The notes below the pieces were generated by a model. That model had not been told where the DNA came from. It saw nothing but the letters and a program-made list of their open reading frames with translations, and searched no databases. This document shows positions 12,326 to 28,125 of a stretch of DNA of 28,125 nt, piece by piece. The stretch lies in IMG/VR virus record IMGVR_UViG_3300030060_000067, positions 1-28,125 of that record. One strand, written 5' to 3'. The position numbers and the translations under genes are program-made. Numbering within the stretch: position 1 is the first letter of the stretch; each line of letters starts with the position of its first letter. Source of the DNA: a virus.

Positions 12326-13104
12326 TGATTGCACCAGCGGTAGGTTTTGGTATTGTTTCTGGTGGTCTTAACTTTTTAAGTGGGATAGCAAACTACCAGG
12401 CACAAAAACAAGATTATGTTAATAAATTAGCTTATAAAAAAGCATCTGATGAATTTGCTACCTGGTCTGCCAGGCAGCAAGCATCTCAGGCAGATTTGAA
12501 TAATCAATATAGGTTTTGGGGAGAAAAAATAAATTACGGTCAAAGTCTTGCATATACAAATTCTCTTAGAAATTATGAATTAAGCAAAGCAATAGTTAGT
12601 GCAGAAGAAGTTGCAAGAGCAAGGGCATCTGCTGGTGCAGATTACATAAGTACAAGCGAAGCGTTTGCTCAAGGGTTTCAACAAGAAGCAATGTCTGATG
12701 CCGTAGCTTTATATCAATACAATGTGCAAGCATTAAAAGCTAGAAGTACTATTGCAGCGGGTGCTACGGAAGGGCCATCTGTTGATAGGTTAATGAATGA
12801 TTACGCAAGGCAAGTAGGAGATTTTACAACTTTAAAACGTATAAATGATGGATTTAAAGAAAGTCAATACAACAGGCAACAAGCTGGTGCTGTTTCTCAA
12901 TATCTAAATCAATACAATAGTCAGCAGTTTTATCAACAGCAAGAATATCTTGATCCTATTCCACCATTTGCTCCATTACCTACATTGATCGGCCCTGCTG
13001 GGCCATCAATGGTTGGCAGCGGGCCAAGTTCAGGGGCAGCATTACTTGGTTCTGTTGCTGGTGGTTTATCTGCTGGACTATCTACTTATGGAGCATTGAA
13101 ATAA
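12325..13104 (+). CDS. Internal virion protein B (T7 gp14-like)
   Basis: The 259-aa protein (T7 gp14 is 196) has a hydrophobic N-terminal segment (APAVGFGIVSGGLNFLSGIANY), then long Gln/Ala-rich helices typical of this family (QAQKQDYVNKLAYKKASDEF, then ARARASAGADYISTSEAFAQ), the tract AAGATEGPSVDRLMNDYARQ, and a Gly/Ser/Pro-rich end. In T7, gp14 is ejected first and forms the outer-membrane channel. It starts by TAATG overlap with the gp13-like gene and ends by TAATG with the gp15-like gene. The Gln-rich tail (about residues 180-208) is longer than in T7. Confidence 0.85.
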   Translation: MIAPAVGFGIVSGGLNFLSGIANYQAQKQDYVNKLAYKKASDEFATWSARQQASQADLNNQYRFWGEKINYGQSLAYTNSLRNYELSKAIVSAEEVARARASAGADYISTSEAFAQGFQQEAMSDAVALYQYNVQALKARSTIAAGATEGPSVDRLMNDYARQVGDFTTLKRINDGFKESQYNRQQAGAVSQYLNQYNSQQFYQQQEYLDPIPPFAPLPTLIGPAGPSMVGSGPSSGAALLGSVAGGLSAGLSTYGALK

Positions 13105-15350
13105 TGGTACAAGAACTTCCAAAAAACCAATTAAACCCTACTGCTAAACCAGTAAATAGATTTTTGTCTTATAGGTCAGAGCAACCCGCTGCACCGCCTA
13201 AGTTAGTAGAGATGCCAACTCCAAAAGGTGTCAACATAATTCAACGATCTAACGAGATGAGTGTTCAAGGCTACAACAGCTTTAAACAATTATCTGATGC
13301 CTTAAAACAAACAAGCCAGGCTGTTAGTCAGCTAGGGCCAGTTGTTAAAAGTATTGAAGAACAGAAAGGTAGAAATGATGTGTTAAAAGCTTATTCATTA
13401 AGCAATAAACAAGCTATAAATAATGCAGAAAATTACGCTGCAACTAATAAGCAAGTGTCCAGAGAAGATGCCATTGCAGGCATGATGATGGATGAAGTCA
13501 ACCCCTGGAGGCAAAAGGCAAGAGAAGATCAACTTAGTAAATTAGCTGCTGGTGAAGCTGGTATATACATGGATAGGGTGTACAACAAATACGCAGCAGA
13601 AATAGTATCTTTAGATCCTTTAAACCCAAGATTAGATCAAATAAAAGCAGAGGCTGTTACACAATTAGCCCAGGATTGGGGAGTAGATGAAACAAGTGCA
13701 AGTTTTATTGATTACACAATTCCTTCTGTGAACAAGTCATGGCAGGGTTTTAACAGTAAACATTTAAAGGCATATACAAAATTTCAGAAAGAATTACAAA
13801 AAACATTAACTAAAGCACAGCTATACCAAGCATTAACAAATTGGAAAAAAGAGGAATTAACAGAAAATGATTTAGTAGCAAGTTTAGGAACTATTCTTAA
13901 TGACCAAGTAAAAAAATTAGGTTTACCTTTAGAGCCAACAGAATTTAAAAAAGATGTTTTATTGGCATTAAGAGCACAGTTAGAAGTAGAAGCTATAGAT
14001 CCAAATAACAAACATTCTCAAAGAGCTGCTAGTTATTTAGGAATGTTAGAAAGTGTGCCAGTGCACATGGTTACAGATGACGAAGGTAATGTCACCAAAA
14101 TAACTACTGCTGGTGAAATGTTTGGTGCAGATTTTCTTATTGAATCTAATAAAATTGGCAATGCTGCACATCAAATAAATAAAAGAAAAGAAGAGGCAGC
14201 AGAAAAAGATTTTGTTCTTAGATGGGCCGAAACTATTGTTCCATTAGAAAAAGGTAGTGCAGAATATAACGCTGCTGTAGCTGAATTATTGTCAGATGAA
14301 AATATTCCATACGATAAAAGAATAACACTGTTCCAGGAAATAGATCAGTTAGATGAAACTGCTGCAAAGACTACATTTAATACTGCACCTGTAGAAGAGA
14401 TATTTGCATTAAATCAAAGCAGGCATGGGGTTAAATACGATGAAGTTGCAGTTAGAAAAGAATTAACTGAAGCATTGGCTGGTATTCCTCCAGAGCTTGC
14501 AGAATATAAGACAAAGAAATGGCAAGAATTTGCAACCATGACAAGACAAAAAAGGTCTGAAGCTGGTGGTGCTTACGAGACATCCATAATTAACAATAAA
14601 ATAAAAGATAATACAAAATTACAAGTAGAAAAGTATTACAAAGAATTAGGAGGTTTATATACGGATGAAAATATTGATATTAAAACAGTCAATTTACAAT
14701 CTTACATAAGTAATTTACAAGTTAATCGACAAGAAGGAGCTATTACATATAGCAATGCTTTAGAAGACAAAATATACGCAGATTTATCTAATGCGATAAA
14801 CGAAAAAGGAGATTTAGACCCAGCAGAACAAACAAAAATTATTACTAATAGTATTGCTGAATTTAATAAAGATGAAGAATCAATTAAAAGTATGTTTCCT
14901 TTGCCAAAAAACAAACAAAAAAAAGATGAAAAACCAATAGATGCTCCACCTACTTACAGAATTGATGCGGCAGATACAATTCCTATGTCAAGAATAGAAA
15001 AAAACGATTATAAACAATTTGCATTATTTGATAAAGAAAGCACACAAAAAGTATTGAAATTAGTAATGGAGGGAAATCCTATACCTGTACCCATGCGATC
15101 AGCAGCAAATAAATACAATATCTCGCCATATCAGTTACTTATTGATACTTTAGAGCATTATAGAGATGAGGAGTTCTACCCTAGTGAAGACACAAAAAAC
15201 TTTCTTTTAAAAAAAGGAAACAAGCTGAAAGGATTAAAAGATTCAGCTAAAGGGTTTTCTCCAGGAACAGGTCAATTATCTGATGCTACTAATTACATCG
15301 CTTATGTCTTAAGTGGTACAGCACCAAAACGATTTATTTACAGAGGTTAA
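13104..15350 (+). CDS. Internal virion protein C (T7 gp15-like)
   Basis: At 748 aa it matches T7 gp15 (747 aa) and has the same position. It is mostly helical. Its N-terminus is loose and Pro-rich, followed by a SNEMSVQGYNSFKQLSDALKQ motif near residue 49 and many charged helices. The C-terminal part includes MRSAANKYNISPYQLLIDTLEHY and ends GTAPKRFIYRG. In T7, gp15 stacks with gp16 as the internal core and then forms the periplasmic tunnel. Sequence similarity is weak by eye, so the call rests on length, order and composition. It starts at a TAATG junction, and three bases separate it from the next gene. Confidence 0.8.
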   Translation: MVQELPKNQLNPTAKPVNRFLSYRSEQPAAPPKLVEMPTPKGVNIIQRSNEMSVQGYNSFKQLSDALKQTSQAVSQLGPVVKSIEEQKGRNDVLKAYSLSNKQAINNAENYAATNKQVSREDAIAGMMMDEVNPWRQKAREDQLSKLAAGEAGIYMDRVYNKYAAEIVSLDPLNPRLDQIKAEAVTQLAQDWGVDETSASFIDYTIPSVNKSWQGFNSKHLKAYTKFQKELQKTLTKAQLYQALTNWKKEELTENDLVASLGTILNDQVKKLGLPLEPTEFKKDVLLALRAQLEVEAIDPNNKHSQRAASYLGMLESVPVHMVTDDEGNVTKITTAGEMFGADFLIESNKIGNAAHQINKRKEEAAEKDFVLRWAETIVPLEKGSAEYNAAVAELLSDENIPYDKRITLFQEIDQLDETAAKTTFNTAPVEEIFALNQSRHGVKYDEVAVRKELTEALAGIPPELAEYKTKKWQEFATMTRQKRSEAGGAYETSIINNKIKDNTKLQVEKYYKELGGLYTDENIDIKTVNLQSYISNLQVNRQEGAITYSNALEDKIYADLSNAINEKGDLDPAEQTKIITNSIAEFNKDEESIKSMFPLPKNKQKKDEKPIDAPPTYRIDAADTIPMSRIEKNDYKQFALFDKESTQKVLKLVMEGNPIPVPMRSAANKYNISPYQLLIDTLEHYRDEEFYPSEDTKNFLLKKGNKLKGLKDSAKGFSPGTGQLSDATNYIAYVLSGTAPKRFIYRG

Positions 15351-15353
15351 GTT

Positions 15354-18300
15354 ATGCCATTAGAACAAGATCCAAACACAAACGAATTAATCACTAAACC
15401 TGTTGAAGAAGAAGAAACTCTTGTTGCAGAAGTTGAAGAAGAAACAGAGAAAAAGCAAGGAGAACTTGATCACCCCTGGTGGGATGTAACAGAAGGCAGA
15501 GGCGGTGCAGCTTTAGAGTCAGTTAAAAATTTTGCTGGCAAAGTAAAAGAAGGAAATGTAACAGGCGGTGATGTTGGTGATTTATTTGGCTCTTTATTGC
15601 ATTTACAAGCTGAATTAACTTTACCTGAGCATTTAGATAATACTTATGCTTTAGGAACAATAAAAGCTATTGGTAATGCGACAAAAGCTATTACTGATAT
15701 GAGAAAAGGAAATTATACAGATTATGCAATAGGTAGAGGTGCGGACGAATTTGTAGAAAGTGGATACAAAGCAGGCGGTTTTAAGCCTCCTTCAGAAATG
15801 ACAACCGCTGAAAAAAGAGGTGATGATTTCAGGTCATCTTTAATGTTAAATGCTTATTTAGCGGCTGCTTCAATGGGTGTTGGTGGATTACTAAGTGCTT
15901 CTAAGATTCCTTTCGTTCAAAAAGCAGTTCAAGGCTTAGATCCTACAAAAGCAAAAAACTTTATGCGGGCAATAGGTAGGGTTGCTGCAATAAATGCCAT
16001 TGATGAAATACCAAGTACATTTTTAGATGACAATAGAGGAAACTTTGGTACTAAACCTGGAATGAGTTTTTCTGAGGCATCAAATGCTGCTTTCGGTTAC
16101 AACCAACTTATGTCTGGTTTGGCTTCAGTAGGTTTAAATGCAATACCGTTGCAACAGCTTTTTGCAAAAAAAGCAAAAGAATTAGAACTTTTTCAAGAAG
16201 CTAAAAGAGCATTAAAAGGGGAATCTATGACTACCCCAAGAAGGATGTATAGAAGCAAGCAAAAAGCTAATGGAATTATTACAGAGGATGCTGGTGGTAA
16301 ATTTGCTTTTACAAAAAACGTAGATCCTGATGGCACTAATGCTGAAAAAGTTACAGCAAAAACACCAGAATCAGATTCAGTTGAAGAAGCATTACAAAAT
16401 TTAGATAATACATTAATATCAGAAGTTGATAAAGCAGAGACAAACATACCTGAAGTAATAGAACAAATATCTAAAAGAGCTGGTGACGGTGATCAACAAT
16501 TACTAAAATATAGCGATGTATCTGCACCGACAGAAAGCCTTGCAATAACTGATATTAATGCTCGTATAGGGCAAGTGCCAACAGATAATTTAATGTCTCT
16601 TGCAAATCCTAAAAATGGCACAGAGTTGTTTGACGTAATATCAGATGCCACAGGCAAAGAATTTGAAGAATTTACAAGAGTAGATGTTGTTAATGGTATT
16701 AAAAAATTAGAAGGTGAAGGCAGAACATTAATGCCTAACAGGTTAATGGGCATGCCAATTATGAATGTAAATGAAATAAAGTTAGATCCAGTAAAGTTTC
16801 AATATAAAGGCGGTGTTGATGCTCAAGGAGTACAAAAAGGTCAATCATTAGAAGGTGTAGAAAAATGGAATAACGATGCAGAAGGTGTAGTCCAGGTATG
16901 GGAAGATTCAGACGGAATAGTTAATATGGTTAATGGACATAACAGATTGCAAAAAGCAAAAGAGCTAGGCATACCTACAGTTAAAGTTGAATTTTTAGAT
17001 GCTCCAGATGCTATAACTGCAAGGCAACAAGGAGCATTAACTAATATTGCTCAAGGCGGTGGTACTCCTTTTGATGCGGCTAATTTTTTAAAAGAATCAG
17101 ATATAACAAGTCCAGAACAATTAACAGATATAGGAGTTCCATTAAAGTCTGGTTTAGGAGCAAAAGGTTTAGCTCTTAGCAAATTGCCACAAAATATTTA
17201 CCAGGACGTATTAGACGGCAAAATAACACAAAACAGAGGATTATTGCTTGGTGGTAGTGGTCTTGATGAAACTGGTATGCAAACTGCATATAAAGTTTTA
17301 CAAAAGAAAGACGTAACTGACGCAACTTTTTCTGAAGTATTGCAACAAGCTAAAAATGCTCCTACAGCAGAAGGCGGCCAAGTTGATTTGTTTGGTAATA
17401 CAGAAATGTTAAATTTAATGATTGAAAAAGGTCAGTTAGCAGCATCTATTAGAAGAAATTTAGTTCAGGATCGTAATTTATTTAGAAGAGCTGGTCAAGG
17501 AGCAGATAGACTGGAGGCTGCTGGTAGTAAAATTGACAGGTTTGAAGCTGCAAATCAAAAGAATTTTGCTGAATCTGCAATAGCACAGTTTGATGCGGAC
17601 AAATATGCAGATACAAATATAAGCAAGTTATTAAATGAAGGTGCAGAACAGATTGGTCAGGGAGCAAAAGTTGGAGTAGTTACAAGAAGAATACAGCCAA
17701 AAATAATAAATGAAATATTAGATAATCCTGTCTTACCTACTAAAACACCTGAGATACAAACAGAATTACCTACTGCAACAGAATTACCTAGTAGGCAGGC
17801 AATGATAAACAATATTATTAAAAAAGCTGCAATAAATGGAGAAGTAAGACCTCCTAGTACACCTTTAATACAAACTCCTAAGCCATCAGACGTAAGTATC
17901 AGCAAAGTAATTAAAGAGCTAGACGAAGGTATAGAAAAAGGTCAGATAGAAGCAAGTGACGATGCAATACGTTTGTTTAGTGACGAATTAAGGCTTGGTG
18001 ATGAGCACAAAACTTTAGATGACGCTATAAATGCAGATCGTGTTGCTGCTAAAAGAAATGAAATAGGTTGGGATAACAAGACTTATGAGCAAAAAAAGAA
18101 TGAAGATTTTTTAAAAATTATGGAAGAAAGTAGCAAAAAGTTTGTTAGGCAAATGGAAATTGATCCTATTAATAAATTAAAAAAAGAGATTCCTAATTTA
18201 TCTATAGATCAATTACAAGCTAAAAAATTAGAGTTAGAAAAAGGTGGTTATCCACTTACAAAAAGAGTTGCAGGCAATATACAAAGAAAAAGAAATCAAT

Positions 18301-19913
18301 TCCCTTATGTAGAAACTAAACAAAAAGCTGAACAAGCAAGATTAGATTTAGTTTCAGATGAAAACTTAAATAAAATATATAAAGATGGCGAGGAAATAGG
18401 CGATCAAATATTTGAAGCAGAACTAAAAAGAATTGAAGATTTAGAAGCAAATGCGTCTAATAGCTTAGATCCAAGATTGATAGGTCAAGCAGAGTATGAT
18501 CTGGTGTTAAATGAATTAAATAATAAAACTACACAAGGATTTAAATTGCCTAATGAATTTGCAAGAATGAAGCCTCGTTATGGTTTAGGTGAAATTGAAT
18601 TTGATAATGATTTAGACAGGGTTGCATACATTATTAGAAGTAAAGCTAAAAAATCTGCAAGAGAAGATGACATAGTTGCGATGTTAAAACAGCAAGGTGT
18701 AGATCCTGAAGCTGCAAGAAGGCATGGAAGCAAGGTACATCAATTTGTAAAAAACTATGTAAAGGAAGAAACTGGTAGTGCTGCTGCTAACAATGCTGCT
18801 GGCATGCTTATAAAAGTACCTGACCAGGGATTTTTTGAAGCACCAAGCATGAGTTTTGCTTCAGGTGTTGATTTTACTGGTGGTACTTATAACGAGGCAA
18901 ATGTAAGGAGAGCATTAGAGCTATATAAACAAAGGCTAAAAATTAATCAGATGGATCAACTTGCTGATTATGGACAGCGTATTGCAGATGATGCAGAAGG
19001 TATTTTAAATCAAAGCAAAGAGTTGGCCTATGAAGCAAATAAAGCTTTAAAAGAAGCGATGGTTATTTCTGGTATAGAACCAGGCAAAGTTAAATTTTTA
19101 GATGAACTTAATATGGATCAAATGTTTTCTTTTGAAGATAACGTAAGATCTACGGCACAATGGCGGCCTGACATAGCTACTTTTATGGCTCGAAATCCTT
19201 CTGATCCTCTAAGTAATATGGGGGTGGGTCAAACATCGGCAATATTTGTTCCTCCTGATTATCAAGGTGCGATGAGAGGTTCGATTTATTTGTCTCTTCA
19301 TGGGAATTTGAGAAGACGTTTAGGAGGCGAGTTATCAGGTGTTTCACAGAAAGGTAGAAGGTTTTTTGCTGATGCTGGTCATGAAGCATTTCATGCAGTA
19401 CAGGGCATGTTAAATAAGTTAGGTGATAAAAGGTTAGCTAATGCTTTAGAACAACCAAAAGCTATAGAAGAGATGATTTCTATTATTAAACGATCTCAAG
19501 GTAATTTTCAACCTGGTATGAACAATAAAGAAATACAAGCGGAAGCATTTGGTCAATGGTTTAGCGATAGAACAGTAAAATTACAAGACGGTGGATTAAA
19601 GGCTGTATTTGAAAGAGCTAAAAAATATTTAAATGAATTTGGCAGAAAATTAAGATTAATATTAAAAAAAGATCCTACTTATGTTGATGTTTTTGAGTTA
19701 GCAGCAAGTGGTGCTATTGCAAGAAAATCAAAAGTAAATAAATTAACACCAGTTCAATTAGAAGCAATGATAGGCAAAATGGATGCTGAACTAGACCGAA
19801 GCATCCCTGAGCTAACTCAGCGTATTAATGATTATTTGGTCGCCAAAAAGATTGAATATGAAAATATGCTGAATGGTTGGAATGATTCTGTAGCAAAAGG
19901 AGGTTGCATCTAA
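15354..19913 (+). CDS. Giant internal virion protein with ParB-like and zincin domains (gp16-like, part 1)
   Basis: A 1519-aa protein in the gp16 position. The N-terminus is very acidic, followed by a hydrophobic helix at about 162-183 (SSLMLNAYLAAASMGVGGLL). A ParB-like region spans about 470-555, with MNVNEIKLDPVKFQ, then NGHNRLQKAKELGIPTVKV; NGHNR is at 527-531. Near the C-terminus GHEAFHAVQ gives an HExxH zinc site (H1343, E1344, H1347), with a probable third ligand in QAEAFGQW (E1397). The lytic transglycosylase of T7 gp16 was not found at the N-terminus or elsewhere. An ejected protein that modifies DNA, protein or peptidoglycan is plausible. AGAGG about eight bases upstream supports the start. 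Confidence 0.75.
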   Translation: MPLEQDPNTNELITKPVEEEETLVAEVEEETEKKQGELDHPWWDVTEGRGGAALESVKNFAGKVKEGNVTGGDVGDLFGSLLHLQAELTLPEHLDNTYALGTIKAIGNATKAITDMRKGNYTDYAIGRGADEFVESGYKAGGFKPPSEMTTAEKRGDDFRSSLMLNAYLAAASMGVGGLLSASKIPFVQKAVQGLDPTKAKNFMRAIGRVAAINAIDEIPSTFLDDNRGNFGTKPGMSFSEASNAAFGYNQLMSGLASVGLNAIPLQQLFAKKAKELELFQEAKRALKGESMTTPRRMYRSKQKANGIITEDAGGKFAFTKNVDPDGTNAEKVTAKTPESDSVEEALQNLDNTLISEVDKAETNIPEVIEQISKRAGDGDQQLLKYSDVSAPTESLAITDINARIGQVPTDNLMSLANPKNGTELFDVISDATGKEFEEFTRVDVVNGIKKLEGEGRTLMPNRLMGMPIMNVNEIKLDPVKFQYKGGVDAQGVQKGQSLEGVEKWNNDAEGVVQVWEDSDGIVNMVNGHNRLQKAKELGIPTVKVEFLDAPDAITARQQGALTNIAQGGGTPFDAANFLKESDITSPEQLTDIGVPLKSGLGAKGLALSKLPQNIYQDVLDGKITQNRGLLLGGSGLDETGMQTAYKVLQKKDVTDATFSEVLQQAKNAPTAEGGQVDLFGNTEMLNLMIEKGQLAASIRRNLVQDRNLFRRAGQGADRLEAAGSKIDRFEAANQKNFAESAIAQFDADKYADTNISKLLNEGAEQIGQGAKVGVVTRRIQPKIINEILDNPVLPTKTPEIQTELPTATELPSRQAMINNIIKKAAINGEVRPPSTPLIQTPKPSDVSISKVIKELDEGIEKGQIEASDDAIRLFSDELRLGDEHKTLDDAINADRVAAKRNEIGWDNKTYEQKKNEDFLKIMEESSKKFVRQMEIDPINKLKKEIPNLSIDQLQAKKLELEKGGYPLTKRVAGNIQRKRNQFPYVETKQKAEQARLDLVSDENLNKIYKDGEEIGDQIFEAELKRIEDLEANASNSLDPRLIGQAEYDLVLNELNNKTTQGFKLPNEFARMKPRYGLGEIEFDNDLDRVAYIIRSKAKKSAREDDIVAMLKQQGVDPEAARRHGSKVHQFVKNYVKEETGSAAANNAAGMLIKVPDQGFFEAPSMSFASGVDFTGGTYNEANVRRALELYKQRLKINQMDQLADYGQRIADDAEGILNQSKELAYEANKALKEAMVISGIEPGKVKFLDELNMDQMFSFEDNVRSTAQWRPDIATFMARNPSDPLSNMGVGQTSAIFVPPDYQGAMRGSIYLSLHGNLRRRLGGELSGVSQKGRRFFADAGHEAFHAVQGMLNKLGDKRLANALEQPKAIEEMISIIKRSQGNFQPGMNNKEIQAEAFGQWFSDRTVKLQDGGLKAVFERAKKYLNEFGRKLRLILKKDPTYVDVFELAASGAIARKSKVNKLTPVQLEAMIGKMDAELDRSIPELTQRINDYLVAKKIEYENMLNGWNDSVAKGGCI

Positions 19914-22900: not shown

Positions 22901-23335
22901 TTAAAAAGTTTAGGAATTAGACAAAAAACATCAAAAGAAATAGTGGATATAAAAGTAAATCCATTATTAGAAAAACATGTATTTGACGAAAAAGGTAATG
23001 GTCGAAAATTTATAGATGCTGCAAGGTCACTAATGAATGATCCTATATATATAAATATGCAGGCAGATCCAACAACTACTGCTGATGTAAGAGTAGCAGA
23101 TAAAACAAATGCAGATTTAAAAAGGATGCCTGGCTATTTAATGATGGCTCAACTAAAGAAATATTATGAATTGATTACAACAGATGCTATAGGAAGAAGT
23201 GATTCTGCTGCTGCTATGAAGTGGCAAGAACGTACTAATATGTTGGAAATAGAACTAAGAGATCAAGCTTTAACAGAAGCAAAAGCTACAGTAAATAATT
23301 TATCTGGTCAAAATCCTGTTCTTGAGTCAAAATAA
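19913..23335 (+). CDS. Giant internal virion protein (gp16-like, part 2)
   Basis: The 1140-aa protein starts at the ATG at 19913. AAAGGAGG (19896-19903) lies nine bases upstream, and this ATG overlaps the previous TAA (TAATG); the in-frame TTG at 19904 falls right against the ribosome site and is unlikely. It opens with a charged coiled coil (DDLFEKRQSLIRKKAEVDEQ). The second half has apolar segments, near residue 685 (LAMHIWSMALIAK) and near 738 (LIGGLPIVNTMFLISDII), followed by GYIGGSQIPGIGIIRG. These suit the membrane-active C-terminal part of T7 gp16. No catalytic motif was recognised. Together with the previous ORF it makes a gp16 equivalent of about 2,650 residues, twice the T7 size, split over two genes. 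Confidence 0.7.
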   Translation: MSKCDDLFEKRQSLIRKKAEVDEQMARMKTIQMSNQMPSDDTFLDAMDRTAQYLEDLETQKFIKESIEAKKKPGVSIPRNQPTNFVKELRDRPEDVVANWANYSQALLRAGKDTLDSRFAFLNSDPLKSAQMLSDAYDGKLNINQALDAVNKLTEGDKTFVEDLVRARWFHDKGKEAYIKAVDDIDIFMERNPNAEVPAELLGKTFNTYKLALMSEATYDFYRNQWSKAGRAQQGRLFPDQLEVVDDAAFVIPDNIKTAEAYVDSLGIQGRKITDTTEEESISRVITAASENITRPKEAMDQLNLELNNIRIQGTDVRKRYDPKMVKDARFRHTNLLAKDSQLFNLRTMGLAFSSNVAMAIRGPYHALYKNTLYKPYGTKLTDSFMEAWQANWKGYAAAYKAVRESGKELFMDAWKGDRMFYSSNVETYGKFYEPVEKRIAELEADLNVEGNWKSYLNPEKYRREIHAATRLWLFRKTKHPAALRPGFSALAALDAPFGYGYHVYKLRTDLEIQARRNGVQLGLFDEESINKYINDQFAEQFYKLDPTEAQIKAYRQEQNIPPGIMDDRAVADEIIETRVANTYGGPVNLDDLSRGASEFSQDMRFQSPPGEGNFLGKKFYEVVNGARQSSPLFDITIAPYLVAPMKGVSLDMKGLGFASINDWIGHATGARRLSPEQIASAKSDAILAMHIWSMALIAKANDQIIGNGPTNPTERAAWLTDLKAKGKKPNSMFGVPLIGGLPIVNTMFLISDIIDSGQTAVRSNYDKKKIAGAILDVLVGNIVRNTSLGTISQIFDLAYGDQYGRRRPMNLFGYIGGSQIPGIGIIRGTERATNSQKSDLYRDAQITKKDEEIYDIGVLENAERFLKNAAYSVTGLAGAAGGSYKDKDWLGSNIKLPFGMELVHYLEHRFFPHLHPNDKVYAELQMLELLEPPNPLLRKRLMDVPMDDDLQKEFNDTYGSIAPGVNDVPMLGPVARAELGGPNKSIRISLPVFVNLKSLGIRQKTSKEIVDIKVNPLLEKHVFDEKGNGRKFIDAARSLMNDPIYINMQADPTTTADVRVADKTNADLKRMPGYLMMAQLKKYYELITTDAIGRSDSAAAMKWQERTNMLEIELRDQALTEAKATVNNLSGQNPVLESK

Positions 23336-23414
23336 GGTTACAATAGCGTAGAACTCTACTTAGCAGCAAAAACCACGACCTAAGAAAATACGACATTTAA
23401 CCATTAGGTTATAG
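23336..23414 (+). promoter_or_regulatory. Spacer before tail fibre with T7-promoter-like bases
   Basis: This 79-nt spacer contains AATACGAC (23387-23394), matching the T7 promoter upstream half, but no TATA at the matching distance, so it is a weak candidate. ACCACGACC at 23372-23380 is the reverse complement of the GGTCGTGGT found at 9-17 and 1172-1180. Small hairpins are GTAG-AACT-CTAC (23348-23359) and AACC-ATTA-GGTT (23399-23410), the latter five bases before the fibre ATG. Confidence 0.3.
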
Positions 23415-25508
23415 ATGCCACTTTCTTATGCCACTTTTACTGGAAATTCTGGAAGTCCACAAAATACTTTCACGATTCCGTATAATTACATTCTTAAAGA
23501 TCATATAAAAGTTTATTATGGTCGTGATATTTTAGCCAATACACAAACATCATTATTAGTAAGCGGAACAGATTATAACTTTACAAGCGATACAACAATA
23601 CAATTAATTGGTTCAACAATTAATTCAGGAACTACTATTGGGAATCCACATAATTTAGCTAATGGTGTTGTCTTAACTCTTGAAAGAGATACACCTGATA
23701 GTAGTCAAATTGTAGAGTTTGCAGATGGATCAAACCTTATAGGTGATAATTTAAATAACGCAAATTTACAAAATTTATTTGTAGTCCAGGAGCAGCAAGA
23801 TAAGAATGATTTGTCTGCGGCTAAAGCTATTGCGGCAGAAACAGCATCAAACACTGCTACGGCTAATGTTGCAAATTTAACAGGCACACAATTTGCCAGT
23901 AATGGCTCAATCCCAATGTCGGGAGATATTAATGCTAATAGCAATAAAATTAAAAATCTTGCTGACCCGACCAATGCACAAGATGGTGTAACTAAAGCAT
24001 ATCTTGAAAGAGCTGGAAGTATTACATCAACGCAAATAGCAAACGGAACTATTGTCAATGACGATATAAATGCAAGTGCAAATATTGCTGGAACAAAAAT
24101 TAATCCTTCATTTGGATCTCAAAATATAACTACTACTGGTACTGCGGCAACAGGTGCGTTAACAGTTACAGGCAATATAAACGTATCAGGAACAGTAGAT
24201 TCAAGAGACATAAACGCTGATGGTACAAAACTTGACACCGTAGAAACTAATGCAAAAGATGATCAGACAGCAGCAGAAATAAAAACTTTATTGCAGTCAA
24301 ATAAAATTACTGACAGCGAGATAGAAACAGGCACTTTAGATAATAGGTACTATACAGAAGCAGAGGCAGATGCAAGATTTTATAATTTAGCAAGTGCAGA
24401 AGAGATACAGTCAGGAGAAACCTGGATTGCTGCTGACAATAAGGTTGCAACGACAGCAGCTATAGATGCAAGAGTTATAGACCTGGTGGATGATGTTGGT
24501 GGTTTTGTGCCGATAGCAAACGAACTAAGTTTCCCCAATACAAACCCTGATATTAATAATGGTGCTGGTACTTTAGTTAGTATTCAAGGACTCAGTACAG
24601 CTTATACATCTGATGGTGGCGGCCAATTTACTATTGCTAATGGAACTATAGGAAACTCCACTGTAACGATTACAGGAGCTACAGCAAGCACTACATTTGC
24701 TGCTGGTTTTGGAATGATATTAGAAACTACTACAACACTAAATACTTATACATTTCATAGACTTGTACCAAAGGCAACAGAGGTAACAACTGTTGCTGGT
24801 AATACATCAAATATTAATACAGTTGCAGGCATAAGCAGTAATGTAACTACTGTTGCTGGTATAGCATCTAGCGTTCCTACTGTTGCTAACATTGCATCTA
24901 ATGTAACTACTGTCGCTGGTGTTTCTTCAAATGTCACCACTGTTGCAGGGATTAGTGGCAATGTGACAACTGTAGCTGGTATCAGCAGTAATGTAACCAC
25001 AGTCGCTAATGATGGTACTGACATAGGAACTGTTGCTGGATCTATTAGTAATGTCAATACAACAGCAGGGTCTATAGCAAATGTAAATACTGTTGCTGGT
25101 TCTATATCAAACGTAAATACAGTTAGTTCAAATATTACAAACGTAATAAATTCTTCAAATTACCTAAATAATTTTTTGCAACTTTATTTAGGTGAAGCAT
25201 CATCTGATCCAACTGCTGATGGTTTAGGTAATGCGATAACAGAAGGCGATTTGTACTTCAACACTGTTGATAAACGTGTTCGTGTTTTTAACGGATCTGT
25301 TTTTCAAAATCTTGCTGAAGGTGCAATAGAAGTTGCCAAGTTTGCAACAGCAACTTTTAACGCTTTGTACACAGCTTCAGCAGGGTCAAACAATATTGAC
25401 CTGGGCGGCCTTGCTGTGTCTGGGGCGGTATTTTCTAATGAAGCTATTGCTGCGAATCGTGTATCGCTAGGCAAAGGTTCTGGCACATTTAATTTAGGAG
25501 GAATTTAA
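23415..25508 (+). CDS. Tail fibre, T7 gp17-like N-terminus with VAG-NV repeats
   Basis: The 697-aa protein has, at residues 1-130, the T7-type fibre attachment domain (SYATFTGNSGSPQNTFTIPY, then HIKVYYG, VLTLERDTPDSSQIVEFADG, and NLQNLFVVQEQQD), which binds the fibre to the tail. A middle part has the GTVDSRDINADGTKLDTVE motif common in marine phage fibres. Residues about 456-578 form a run of ten-residue units of the type (S/N)NVTTVAGI. A short C-terminal module follows (LGEASSDPT, then EGDLYFNTVDKRVRVFNGS). The repeats probably make a triple-stranded shaft. No large receptor-binding head is visible, which suggests that the next gene supplies it. Confidence 0.88.
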   Translation: MPLSYATFTGNSGSPQNTFTIPYNYILKDHIKVYYGRDILANTQTSLLVSGTDYNFTSDTTIQLIGSTINSGTTIGNPHNLANGVVLTLERDTPDSSQIVEFADGSNLIGDNLNNANLQNLFVVQEQQDKNDLSAAKAIAAETASNTATANVANLTGTQFASNGSIPMSGDINANSNKIKNLADPTNAQDGVTKAYLERAGSITSTQIANGTIVNDDINASANIAGTKINPSFGSQNITTTGTAATGALTVTGNINVSGTVDSRDINADGTKLDTVETNAKDDQTAAEIKTLLQSNKITDSEIETGTLDNRYYTEAEADARFYNLASAEEIQSGETWIAADNKVATTAAIDARVIDLVDDVGGFVPIANELSFPNTNPDINNGAGTLVSIQGLSTAYTSDGGGQFTIANGTIGNSTVTITGATASTTFAAGFGMILETTTTLNTYTFHRLVPKATEVTTVAGNTSNINTVAGISSNVTTVAGIASSVPTVANIASNVTTVAGVSSNVTTVAGISGNVTTVAGISSNVTTVANDGTDIGTVAGSISNVNTTAGSIANVNTVAGSISNVNTVSSNITNVINSSNYLNNFLQLYLGEASSDPTADGLGNAITEGDLYFNTVDKRVRVFNGSVFQNLAEGAIEVAKFATATFNALYTASAGSNNIDLGGLAVSGAVFSNEAIAANRVSLGKGSGTFNLGGI
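24780..25150 (+). repeat. VAG-NV short-period repeat region in tail fibre
   Basis: About a dozen ten-residue units cycle through TTVAGISSNV, TVANIASNV, TVAGVSSNV and TVAGSISNV. The codons vary at third positions, so the repeat is stronger in protein than in DNA. This implies old repeats kept by selection, with some scope for unit gain or loss. Confidence 0.85.
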
Positions 25509-25513
25509 CTACC

Positions 25514-28078
25514 ATGCCTGACCAATTACAACTAAGAGGTGGTTCTACCACTGAACATAATTCATTTACTGGTGCTGCAAGAGAAGTCACAGTAGATACC
25601 ACAAAGAAAACATTAGTAGTCCATGACGGATCACAGGCTGGTGGTACTCCACTTATGAGAGAAAGTGGTGGTGGAGTTAATGCAACTATAAATGGTGTAA
25701 GCGTAGGTAAAGGAGCGAACTCTGTTTCTGGTAACACTGTTCTTGGAGAGAGTGCTTTAGATGCTTCTGTTTCTGGTGGAAATAATACTGCTATTGGTAA
25801 AAATGCTTTGGGTACAAACACAAGTGGAGCAGAAAACGTAGCCGTTGGTACTGGTGCTTTAGATGCAAATACTACAGCAAGCTTTAATACAGCAGTCGGT
25901 TATAATGCTTTAGCCACAAATACGACTGGAGCTGATAATACTGCTGTAGGTCGTGCAGCTTTATTTTCAAACACAGGATCTAATAACACAGCAGTAGGTA
26001 AAGAAGCTTTAAAAATCAACACTTCGGGAAGTAATACTACAGCAGTAGGTAGAGCAGCACTCCTTGTAAACACAACTGGAGAATCTAATACAGCACTTGG
26101 TAGTAGTGCTTTACAAAGTAACACTACAGCAGATAATAACACTGCTGTAGGTAAATCTGCTTTACTTGCAAACACAACTGGAACATCAAACGTAGCTGTC
26201 GGTGCTTTTGCGTTAGATGCTAATACTACAGGCAATAACAACCTTGCAATAGGTAGTAGTGCCTTGGGTGCTGTTACAACAGGATCACAAAACGTTGCTG
26301 TTGGTGGTCTTTGTTTAGATGCTGTAACTACTTCTACCTACAACACAGGTATTGGTTATGCTGCTGGATCAGCTTTAACAACAGGTGGATTTAACACAAT
26401 ACTTGGAGGTAACGCATTAGTAACAGCCACTAATGCTAATAACAACGTGGCTGTTGGTTATAATGCTATGAACGCAACTACAAGTGGTGCTGAAAACGTA
26501 GCTGTTGGTTTTGCAGCGTTAGACGCAAACTCATCAGGTAGTGCAAACATTGCAATTGGAAATAATGCTTTAACATCTGCTACAACTAGTTCTAATAATG
26601 TAGGTGTTGGTAATAATGCTTTATCAAGTAATACTACTGGAACATTTAATACAGCCCTAGGTGCTAACGCATTAGATGCTAATACCACAGCAAGCAACAA
26701 CACAGCAGTTGGTTTGAACTCATTAACAGCAAACACAACTGGAGCTGGTAACACAGCCGTAGGAGGAAACGCTTTAGATTCAAATACTACAGCAGAGGAA
26801 AACACAGGTATAGGTTATTTAGCGTTAGAAGTAAACTCAACTGGACAATATAATACTGCTGTTGGAGCAAGAGCATTAGACGCTAATAGTACAGCAAGTA
26901 ACAATACGGCAGTTGGCAGACAAGCTTTAACAACAAATACTACTGGGGCAAACAATACAGGAATTGGGTTTCAGAGTTTATTAATGAACACAACTGGAGC
27001 TAATAACACTGCTGTTGGAGCTAACGCTTTAGATGCTAATACAACCGGAGAAATTAATACTGCTGTTGGTAAAGATTCATTAGGTTCAAATACAACAGGT
27101 TCTAATAACACTGCTGTTGGTAATGAAGCATTAACTACAAATACAACAGGTGCAAATAACGTCGCTGTTGGTAAAGATTCCTTGCAAGCAAACACAACTG
27201 GAGCTAACAACGTAGCTGTAGGAGCTTTCGCTTTAGATGCTCAAACTACTGATTCAAATAATACTGCTGTTGGTTATAAAGCTTTAAGTGAAAACACTCA
27301 AACAAATAACACTGGTATTGGTCATCAAGCTTTAATGTCAAACACAACTGGGGCACAAAACGTAGCTGTAGGTAGTGCAGCCTTAGATGCTAATACCACA
27401 GGAGGTGATAATAATGCTTTCGGTCATATTGCTTTAGGTAAAAGCACAACTGCCTCAAACAATTGTGCTTTTGGAAGAAGTGCTGGTCAAGAAGTTACTA
27501 CAGGAGGTAGCAATACACTAATAGGTCACGATGCTGGCGGTAATACCAGCACAGGGGATTCAAATACTTTTGTTGGAAGAAGTTCTGGAGTTGTATGCAC
27601 AACTGGTACAAATAATATCTGTATAGGTACTCATGCAGACTTATCTAATAGTGATGCTGATAACAGAATTGTAATTGGTCGCACTATATCGGGAGGAACT
27701 GATAATACTTTTTCCTTTGGTAAACAAAGCAATGTTGTTTCAAATACTTTTACCTCAAATGCTACTTTCACTAGAAACTCTGATGTTTCATTAAAAAAAG
27801 ACATTCTTACAAATGAGGATTGCGGTTTAGACTTTATAAATGACTTAAGGACAGTTACATTTAAATGGATAGATGACAGCAGTTATAAAGAAAAAATGTA
27901 TGGATTTATTGCACAGGAAGTTAAGGCAGCATTAGATAAGCACAACATCACAGATTTTAACGGATGGAATGAACAACCAGATGGATTACAAGGTATTTCA
28001 TACGAAATGTTTATCATGCCTCTAGTAAAAGCAGTACAAGAATTATCAGCAAAAGTCACAGCCCTCGAAGCAGGGTAA
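25514..28078 (+). CDS. Repeat-rich tail fibre/adhesin with S74 chaperone tail
   Basis: The 854-aa protein has an N-terminal fibre cap (LQLRGGSTTEHNSFTGAARE, then VTVDTTKKTLVVHDG, residues 4-39) typical of marine phage fibres. About 38 units of 17 residues with consensus N-T-A-V-G-x-x-A-L-x-x-N-T-T-G-x-x follow (about 73-720), probably a trimeric beta-roll like YadA heads. The C-terminus is an S74 intramolecular chaperone: SDVSLKKDI at 756-764, FKW, then YGFIAQEV and the closing helix KAVQELSAKVTALEAG. In this family the domain trimerises the fibre and cleaves itself before the Ser of the SD pair, here S756, releasing about 99 residues. AGGAGG at 25496-25501 lies 12 bases upstream of the ATG. 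It probably forms the receptor-binding fibre with the previous protein. Confidence 0.9.
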   Translation: MPDQLQLRGGSTTEHNSFTGAAREVTVDTTKKTLVVHDGSQAGGTPLMRESGGGVNATINGVSVGKGANSVSGNTVLGESALDASVSGGNNTAIGKNALGTNTSGAENVAVGTGALDANTTASFNTAVGYNALATNTTGADNTAVGRAALFSNTGSNNTAVGKEALKINTSGSNTTAVGRAALLVNTTGESNTALGSSALQSNTTADNNTAVGKSALLANTTGTSNVAVGAFALDANTTGNNNLAIGSSALGAVTTGSQNVAVGGLCLDAVTTSTYNTGIGYAAGSALTTGGFNTILGGNALVTATNANNNVAVGYNAMNATTSGAENVAVGFAALDANSSGSANIAIGNNALTSATTSSNNVGVGNNALSSNTTGTFNTALGANALDANTTASNNTAVGLNSLTANTTGAGNTAVGGNALDSNTTAEENTGIGYLALEVNSTGQYNTAVGARALDANSTASNNTAVGRQALTTNTTGANNTGIGFQSLLMNTTGANNTAVGANALDANTTGEINTAVGKDSLGSNTTGSNNTAVGNEALTTNTTGANNVAVGKDSLQANTTGANNVAVGAFALDAQTTDSNNTAVGYKALSENTQTNNTGIGHQALMSNTTGAQNVAVGSAALDANTTGGDNNAFGHIALGKSTTASNNCAFGRSAGQEVTTGGSNTLIGHDAGGNTSTGDSNTFVGRSSGVVCTTGTNNICIGTHADLSNSDADNRIVIGRTISGGTDNTFSFGKQSNVVSNTFTSNATFTRNSDVSLKKDILTNEDCGLDFINDLRTVTFKWIDDSSYKEKMYGFIAQEVKAALDKHNITDFNGWNEQPDGLQGISYEMFIMPLVKAVQELSAKVTALEAG
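25730..27690 (+). repeat. Tandem 51-bp (17-aa) repeats in second fibre
   Basis: By reading the translation I count about 38 consecutive units, a few shortened to 16 residues (for example near 25960 and 27290). Early and late units drift (NTILGGNAL, NCAFGRSAG, NTLIGHDAG), while the centre stays close to consensus. DNA copies are diverged, but near-identical stretches such as AACACAACTGGAGCTAA recur, giving potential for recombination. Confidence 0.9.
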
Positions 28079-28103: not shown

Positions 28104-28125
28104 ATGGAAGAAAGAACCGCAGATG
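28104..28125 (+). CDS. Start of a following gene, cut by the window end
   Basis: An ATG at 28104 opens a frame (MEERTAD) that runs off the window. It lies 26 bases after the fibre stop, with TGTAAA at 28081-28086 but no clear ribosome site; weak ribosome sites are common in this genome (portal, capsid). Only seven codons are visible, so no function can be given. Confidence 0.4.

Follow-up and report, generated by a model that had tools for sequence, protein, structure and literature searches.

A two-gene tail fibre of a marine T7-like phage and a candidate C-terminal peptide joining its stalk to an Mtd-type tip

The 28,125-base stretch of DNA analysed here (the window) is a virus record from a marine T7-like phage and carries the structural genes. 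The major capsid protein shares 80% identity with that of uncultured phage MedDCM-OCT-S37-C6 (Oinezvirus, Autographiviridae); the identity to that of Synechococcus phage S-SRP02 is 53%. Two neighbouring genes of the same direction, A and B, are separated by 5 bp according to the ORF calls (Table 1). A search of NCBIfam gave no matches. Homologues of gene A include those at loci L007, L087, L088, L091 and L100, among others. The MEERTADE gene that closes the fibre cassette on the right also lies 3' of two-gene fibres at six loci (L007, L087, L088, L091, L096 and L066) and of one-gene fibres at four (L040, L093, L117 and L141). Elsewhere in the window, two large proteins of 748 and 1519 aa (13104–15350 and 15354–19913) occupy the position of internal virion proteins; neither has a Pfam match, and the 748-aa protein has no PHROG match either.

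Table 1. Features of the fibre cassette, with positions in the window
Feature	Position (nt)	Strand	Basis
Gene A, T7 gp17-like tail fibre/adaptor stalk, 697 aa	23415–25508	+	ORF, PF03906, homologues
A aa 5–134, tail-binding N-terminal domain Phage_T7_tail	23427–23816	+	PF03906, E 1.5e-15
A aa ~454–575, shaft of NVTTVAGISS-type repeats	24774–25139	+	TRF arrays
A aa 584–642, small fibre domain (YLGEASSDPT...YFNT)	25164–25340	+	profile AC1
A aa 651–697, 47-residue C-terminal tip	25365–25505	+	profile AC2
A C-terminal plug peptide NLGGI-COOH (putative)	25491–25505	+	motif statistics upstream of Mtd_N genes
AGGAGG, gene B Shine-Dalgarno, inside LGGI codons of gene A	25496–25501	+	sequence, relatives' codon table
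Gene B, Mtd-type distal tip protein, 854 aa	25514–28078	+	ORF, Pfam
B aa 1–52, Mtd_N prism, proposed socket for A C-terminus	25514–25669	+	PF18454
B aa 74–717, 38 units of ~17 aa, predicted beta-solenoid	25733–27664	+	periodicity, AlphaFold2
Predicted B self-cleavage, aa 755/756	between 27778 and 27779	+	S74 motif
B aa 756–854, S74 intramolecular chaperone, Ser756/Lys761	27779–28075	+	PF13884
Downstream gene start (MEERTAD...), right border of fibre cassette	28104–28125	+	kept in relatives

The PF03906 match of A exceeds the curated cut-off and is the only Pfam domain of the protein: the search found no S74 domain, no recognised receptor domain and no C-terminal receptor-binding head, and the chain ends in a 47-residue tip. 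This agrees with the original prediction of a gp17-like protein that has the tail-binding domain and lacks a large head. A matches the fibre structure of P-SCSP1u (8i4m) with an overall E-value of 8.7e-24 (phmmer). Its shaft repeats are common to the BPP-1 fibre bbp9 and many marine fibres, and A 452–561 is 43% identical to the bbp9 shaft (tblastn); the small fibre domain that follows is retained within one-gene fibres too. A structure match to a "60 kDa protein" (9lc0) covers just the shaft repeats and was set aside. The AlphaFold2 model of the C-terminal 257 aa (mean pLDDT 45) was unusable, as is expected for a trimeric fibre.

B begins with an Mtd_N domain (PF18454, aa 6–40, E 3.9e-14). When B was compared with all solved structures, the sole family matched was Mtd of Bordetella phages (1yu3; phmmer, E 4.7e-11), the similarity being convincing for B 4–50 only and weak over the remainder of the 4–160 alignment. 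In alignment A1 the prism is ~60% identical to that of BPP-1 Mtd. The Pfam search found no lectin domain in B, and the AlphaFold2 prediction of B leaves aa 1–72 without a model. A fibre cap had been proposed for this part of the protein; an N-terminal domain is indeed present, and its identity, unrecognised in that first reading, is here refined to Mtd_N.

The prism is followed by repeats of consensus NTAVGxxALxxNTTGxx. Their number had been put at about 38, and 38 units are found, starting at aa 74–701; the spacing is exactly 17 aa in 35 of the 37 intervals, and the identity at lag 17 is 0.465 (at most 0.151 in 500 shuffles). In the AlphaFold2 model the repeats form a regular solenoid, each 17-aa turn of which has three short strands (pLDDT mostly 80–93). 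The nearest folds listed for the monomer model are tailspike beta-helices (Z about 16, about 10% identity), a likeness that, for this predicted model, is generic. With YadA-like heads the repeats have in common short tandem units with a conserved N..A.G and a putative role as the head of a trimeric adhesin. They differ in their 17-aa unit, there is no Pfam YadA match in B at E 0.1, and YadA structures are absent among the fold matches listed for the model, though the repeats may still have a YadA-type fold.

At the C-terminus of B, the expected S74 chaperone is present (PF13884 Peptidase_S74, aa 756–810, E 5.8e-11), with Ser756 and Lys761 intact. Their counterparts, S587/K592 in MyRF and S911/K916 in endosialidase NF, are indispensable for cleavage (PMC8326128), and S756, D757 and K761 are invariant in a 12-sequence alignment (A2). 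B resembles endosialidase NF and the MyRF ICA in the Ser/Lys spacing of five residues, in the C-terminal position of the domain and in fold: the C-terminus of the B model matches 7dc3 and 3gw6_B with a Foldseek probability of 1.00, the E-value being non-significant for the whole 854-aa model. The S74 domain of B differs in being attached to a repeat tip and in its motif, SDVSLK, in which Ser replaces the Arg common in relatives (SDxRxK). Given the matching catalytic pair, its invariance in A2 and the fold match of the C-terminus, self-cleavage of B is likely. MyRF is cut just before the serine (PMC8326128); since SDVSLK begins at Ser756, the equivalent cut in B would leave residues 1–755, a position that fits the product of about 755 residues in the original prediction.

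Relatives that are 77–89% identical in nucleotide sequence to window 23004–24100 carry longer fibres. Three of these run off the contig ends (L105, L113 and L114), and that of L093 is complete: its one-gene fibre of 2108 aa corresponds to A(1–650) followed by B(~62–854), and lacks exactly A(651–697) and B(1–~60), that is, the A tip and the B prism. The same junction occurs in L040 and L117, and the alignments of all three end at A 648–650. In L093 and L117 the A part to about residue 650, the NTAVG repeats and the S74 domain are all shared with the two-gene form; these fibres and those of P-SSP6 and P-SCSP1u differ from it in being covalently continuous, without the C-terminal plug or the Mtd prism. 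The fibre of P-SSP6 matches A just to residue 651 and then continues into an unrelated tip. The A tip profile (AC2) is found in 24 two-gene fibres and in none of the 19 long one-gene ones. The loci retrieved when A served as the sole query, a few pairs of which are near-duplicates, comprise 33 fibres with both the C-terminal motif described below and a following Mtd_N gene, 14 long one-gene fibres with neither feature, and no mixed cases. Cultured phages are found in both groups, with Synechococcus phage S-TIP37 and Roseobacter phage CRP-3 in the two-gene group and P-SSP6 and P-SCSP1u in the one-gene group. In addition, a C-terminal module (..GKKYKFNLTEVS) ends the separate Mtd_N tip protein (the second gene) of L157 and also the covalent one-gene fibres of L111, L125, L128 and P-SCSP1u; the virion structure of P-SCSP1u has been solved, and the fibre tip is not resolved therein.

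From the split/fused correspondence it follows that B continues A distally, and the additional material of the split form becomes a candidate coupling device. Because the fused relatives lack exactly the A tip and the B prism, B would be placed coaxially at the distal end of A. The original prediction, a two-gene fibre with A as adaptor and B distal, is thus borne out at the level of sequence by relatives that encode A(1–650) and B(~62–854) as one chain; of the two layouts it allowed, branched or extended, the extended one is favoured, since the same relatives run through the junction and A has no branching receptor domain of its own, and attachment is probably end-to-end. In a branched fibre, A would keep a receptor function at its tip, with B at the side or two B trimers per A. 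Two-protein fibres in which one protein anchors the other are known, LtfA-LtfB of the T5-like phages DT57C and DT571/2 and gp14-gp15 of phiEco32 (PMC4728585), and gold labelling in BPP-1 pointed to an Mtd hexamer on each fibre (PMC3567102). As in the window, two genes in DT57C and phiEco32 replace the single-gene fibre of relatives, and S74 domains are present (PMC4728585). In DT57C, however, both LtfA and LtfB carry S74 and proposed receptor domains, and the fibre was inferred to be branched, whereas A has neither a recognised receptor domain nor S74. In phiEco32 the coupling elements of A and B are missing: gp14 ends VEMPSK and gp15 has no prism. With one-gene relatives running A straight into the B repeats, a branched arrangement seems unlikely, though one with two B trimers per A is conceivable.

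B could also be an independent or released adhesin that is just co-transcribed with A and forms no virion tip, S74 proteins being found in several appendage types. Against this stand the fused relatives, the perfect split/fused dichotomy and the fibre-mtd gene order of BPP-1, and we give this reading almost no weight.

The closest parallel to the end-to-end arrangement is that of BPP-1, where Mtd is reported to lie at the distal end of the tail fibres (PMC10743442; PMC3567102) and its N-terminal beta-prism "presumably" attaches to the fibre (PMC10743442). In BPP-1, mtd comes directly after the fibre gene bbp9, just as the Mtd_N gene B comes after fibre gene A. Besides the similarities of prism and shaft, bbp9 ends DLGGIA and A ends NLGGI. 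In contrast to the Mtd system, with its C-type lectin domain, variable repeat and retroelement, B has none of these and carries the 17-aa repeat solenoid and S74 chaperone instead. As judged from sequence, B shares the coupling of Mtd but is not an Mtd, and the arrangement is that of an Mtd-type two-piece fibre with the lectin replaced by a repeat solenoid and S74 chaperone.

The conserved C-terminal peptide of A went unnoticed in the first reading of the window. Fibres encoded before Mtd_N genes end in [DN][LFY]Gx[ILV], which was scored as [DN][LFYIMV]Gx[ILVMF] at most two residues from the stop, a pattern written before further data were seen. Of the 83 distinct C-termini that precede an Mtd_N gene, 61 have the motif, compared with 9 among 1319 other genes; in the data gathered once it had been noticed, it occurs in 43/49 viral contigs, 4/7 phage records and 5/17 bacterial genomes. 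The 70 residues preceding the peptide fall into 27 clusters, 14 of which contain the motif, so that it recurs in fibre contexts without detectable mutual similarity. These contexts, at least 14 in number, include BPP-1 and the window, and examples of the motif are found in Pseudomonas phage AH02 (VNLGGLA), Pelagibacter phage HTVC008M (VDLGSVA), CRP-3 (FDFGSI) and S-TIP37 (IDFGTL). The peptide is missing upstream of some Mtd_N genes (S-SSM7, Phosso and several bacterial contigs). Within these fibres the motif is ~3.5 times commoner than in other proteins and may therefore partly be a structural element of the fibre class; it could be a fibre-fold strand that stays exposed at the terminus. Literature searches of open-licence papers found no description of the peptide.

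In the window, the gene B Shine-Dalgarno lies within the LGGI codons and so couples the two genes and the peptide. It might be argued that such a peptide is conserved for translation and not for docking, its G-G, G-S or G-A codons carrying the Shine-Dalgarno of the next gene, and GGAG, GAGG or AGGA does occur in the last 21 nt of 35 of the 61 motif cases, the window among them. However, equally tight gene pairs with a Shine-Dalgarno core in the last 21 nt have the motif in just 3 of 181 cases, compared with the 61 of 83 upstream of Mtd_N genes (Fisher p 4e-37). In BPP-1, L178, L207, L225 and L052, moreover, the peptide is present though the Shine-Dalgarno sits in the intergenic gap, and the Shine-Dalgarno leaves the D/N, the F/Y/L and the final I/L/V of the peptide unexplained. 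A purely translational origin thus appears very unlikely.

Some loci contain chains of such genes. A B. ansorpii prophage (L177) encodes a protein ending LDLGNLS, then an Mtd_N protein that itself ends LDLGDLT, and then another Mtd_N protein. L178 also has a chain, the second tail of which is a DGG variant, and L158 is a further case. In Parasutterella muris (L169, 3135–4531), three tandem Mtd_N genes with Cys-rich C-termini lie after a fibre ending VDLGGLS. Apparent in-frame fusions of peptide and prism in L176 and L189 were rejected as ORF over-extensions in GC-rich contigs.

Tails of the form [DN]GG[TSN][FY] occur before genes starting ..IKxKRS..GE.. or ..VARGTTSN..EGE.. at nine loci and in AP013546 (L281). 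Such combinations of tail and start resemble a sister form of the peptide-prism pairing; a profile comparison with Mtd_N gives weak similarity (probability 33%, E 5e-4). T4-like phages and the sibling phage AP013546 have this putative sister form, with [DN]GG[TS][FY] before KRS..GE prisms. The repeat-S74 part of B is also found behind another N-terminus (MxQHDYVIDNSTGANVRxDxN...), which replaces Mtd_N at 13 loci; the gene upstream of these proteins always ends ..TAVGFGRGS or ..ATGFGRGS. The GFGRGS C-terminus and the VIDNSTGANVR N-terminus apparently constitute a second coupling pair.

The domains, the catalytic pair, the gene order, the split/fused correspondence and the peptide-prism association can all be read directly from the DNA; physical binding of A to B, the geometry of the trimers, cleavage in B and receptor binding by the repeats are what we infer. 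We consider it likely that A and B form one fibre in which the C-terminal plug of A is held in the Mtd-prism socket of B and the repeat-S74 part of B forms the tip. In the proposed assembly, A trimers would bind the tail via the gp17-type N-terminus, the remainder forming an outward-pointing stalk whose last residues (tip aa 651–697, ending NLGGI) would be the plug. The Mtd-type prism of B would be the socket, so that a B trimer would sit end-to-end on A, like Mtd on the BPP-1 fibre. The 38 repeats would form a solenoid tip of roughly 18 nm if the rise per turn is about 0.47 nm, and the S74 domain would trimerise and fold this tip before cutting itself off ahead of Ser756. More generally, we lean towards the view that [DN][LFYW]Gx[ILV]-COOH generally serves as the plug for an Mtd-type prism encoded by the next gene. 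This plug would join unrelated fibres to exchangeable tips, could be chained, would have a sister form and would tell where Mtd docks on the BPP-1 fibre.

A junction made of a short peptide and a ~50-aa domain would allow the tip beyond the prism to be exchanged freely between phages. Two-gene relatives with the A tip and the prism have, in five cases, unrelated tips in which Mtd_N is the sole recognisable domain (L090, L098, L107, L127 and L160) and, in three others, a different S74 tip (L100, L102 and L129). Swaps of the whole tip are commoner among relatives than changes in its length. The number of repeats can nevertheless vary, as had been suggested: repeat-bearing relatives have 23–57 units, most starting at residue 74. 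Recent gain or loss of units was not visible among the five loci retrieved with degenerate DNA patterns, none of which is close enough to B. A shift of host range with unit number, also suggested, is so far unsupported.

The variation in unit number with the same start register in most relatives, the uniformity of the units and the regular solenoid of the AlphaFold2 model would also suit a passive spacer that lengthens the stalk, with recognition located elsewhere and unit number tuning reach and not specificity. Yet the repeats come almost last in the chain once S74 is removed, and no other receptor domain is obvious; the YadA/S74-bearing C-terminal part of the fibre in marine relatives recruits too few reads, which is also how host-recognition regions behave (PMC3909814). 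We therefore regard a mere spacer role as possible but doubtful.

The surprising part of the finding is the recurrent C-terminal peptide, by which the proposed fibre-side partner of the Mtd prism is five residues long. If this is correct, one phage group would have the same fibre in a covalent and a two-piece form, sequence would predict which phage proteins stack on which, and the junction would explain how unrelated phages trade receptor tips without redesign of the fibre.
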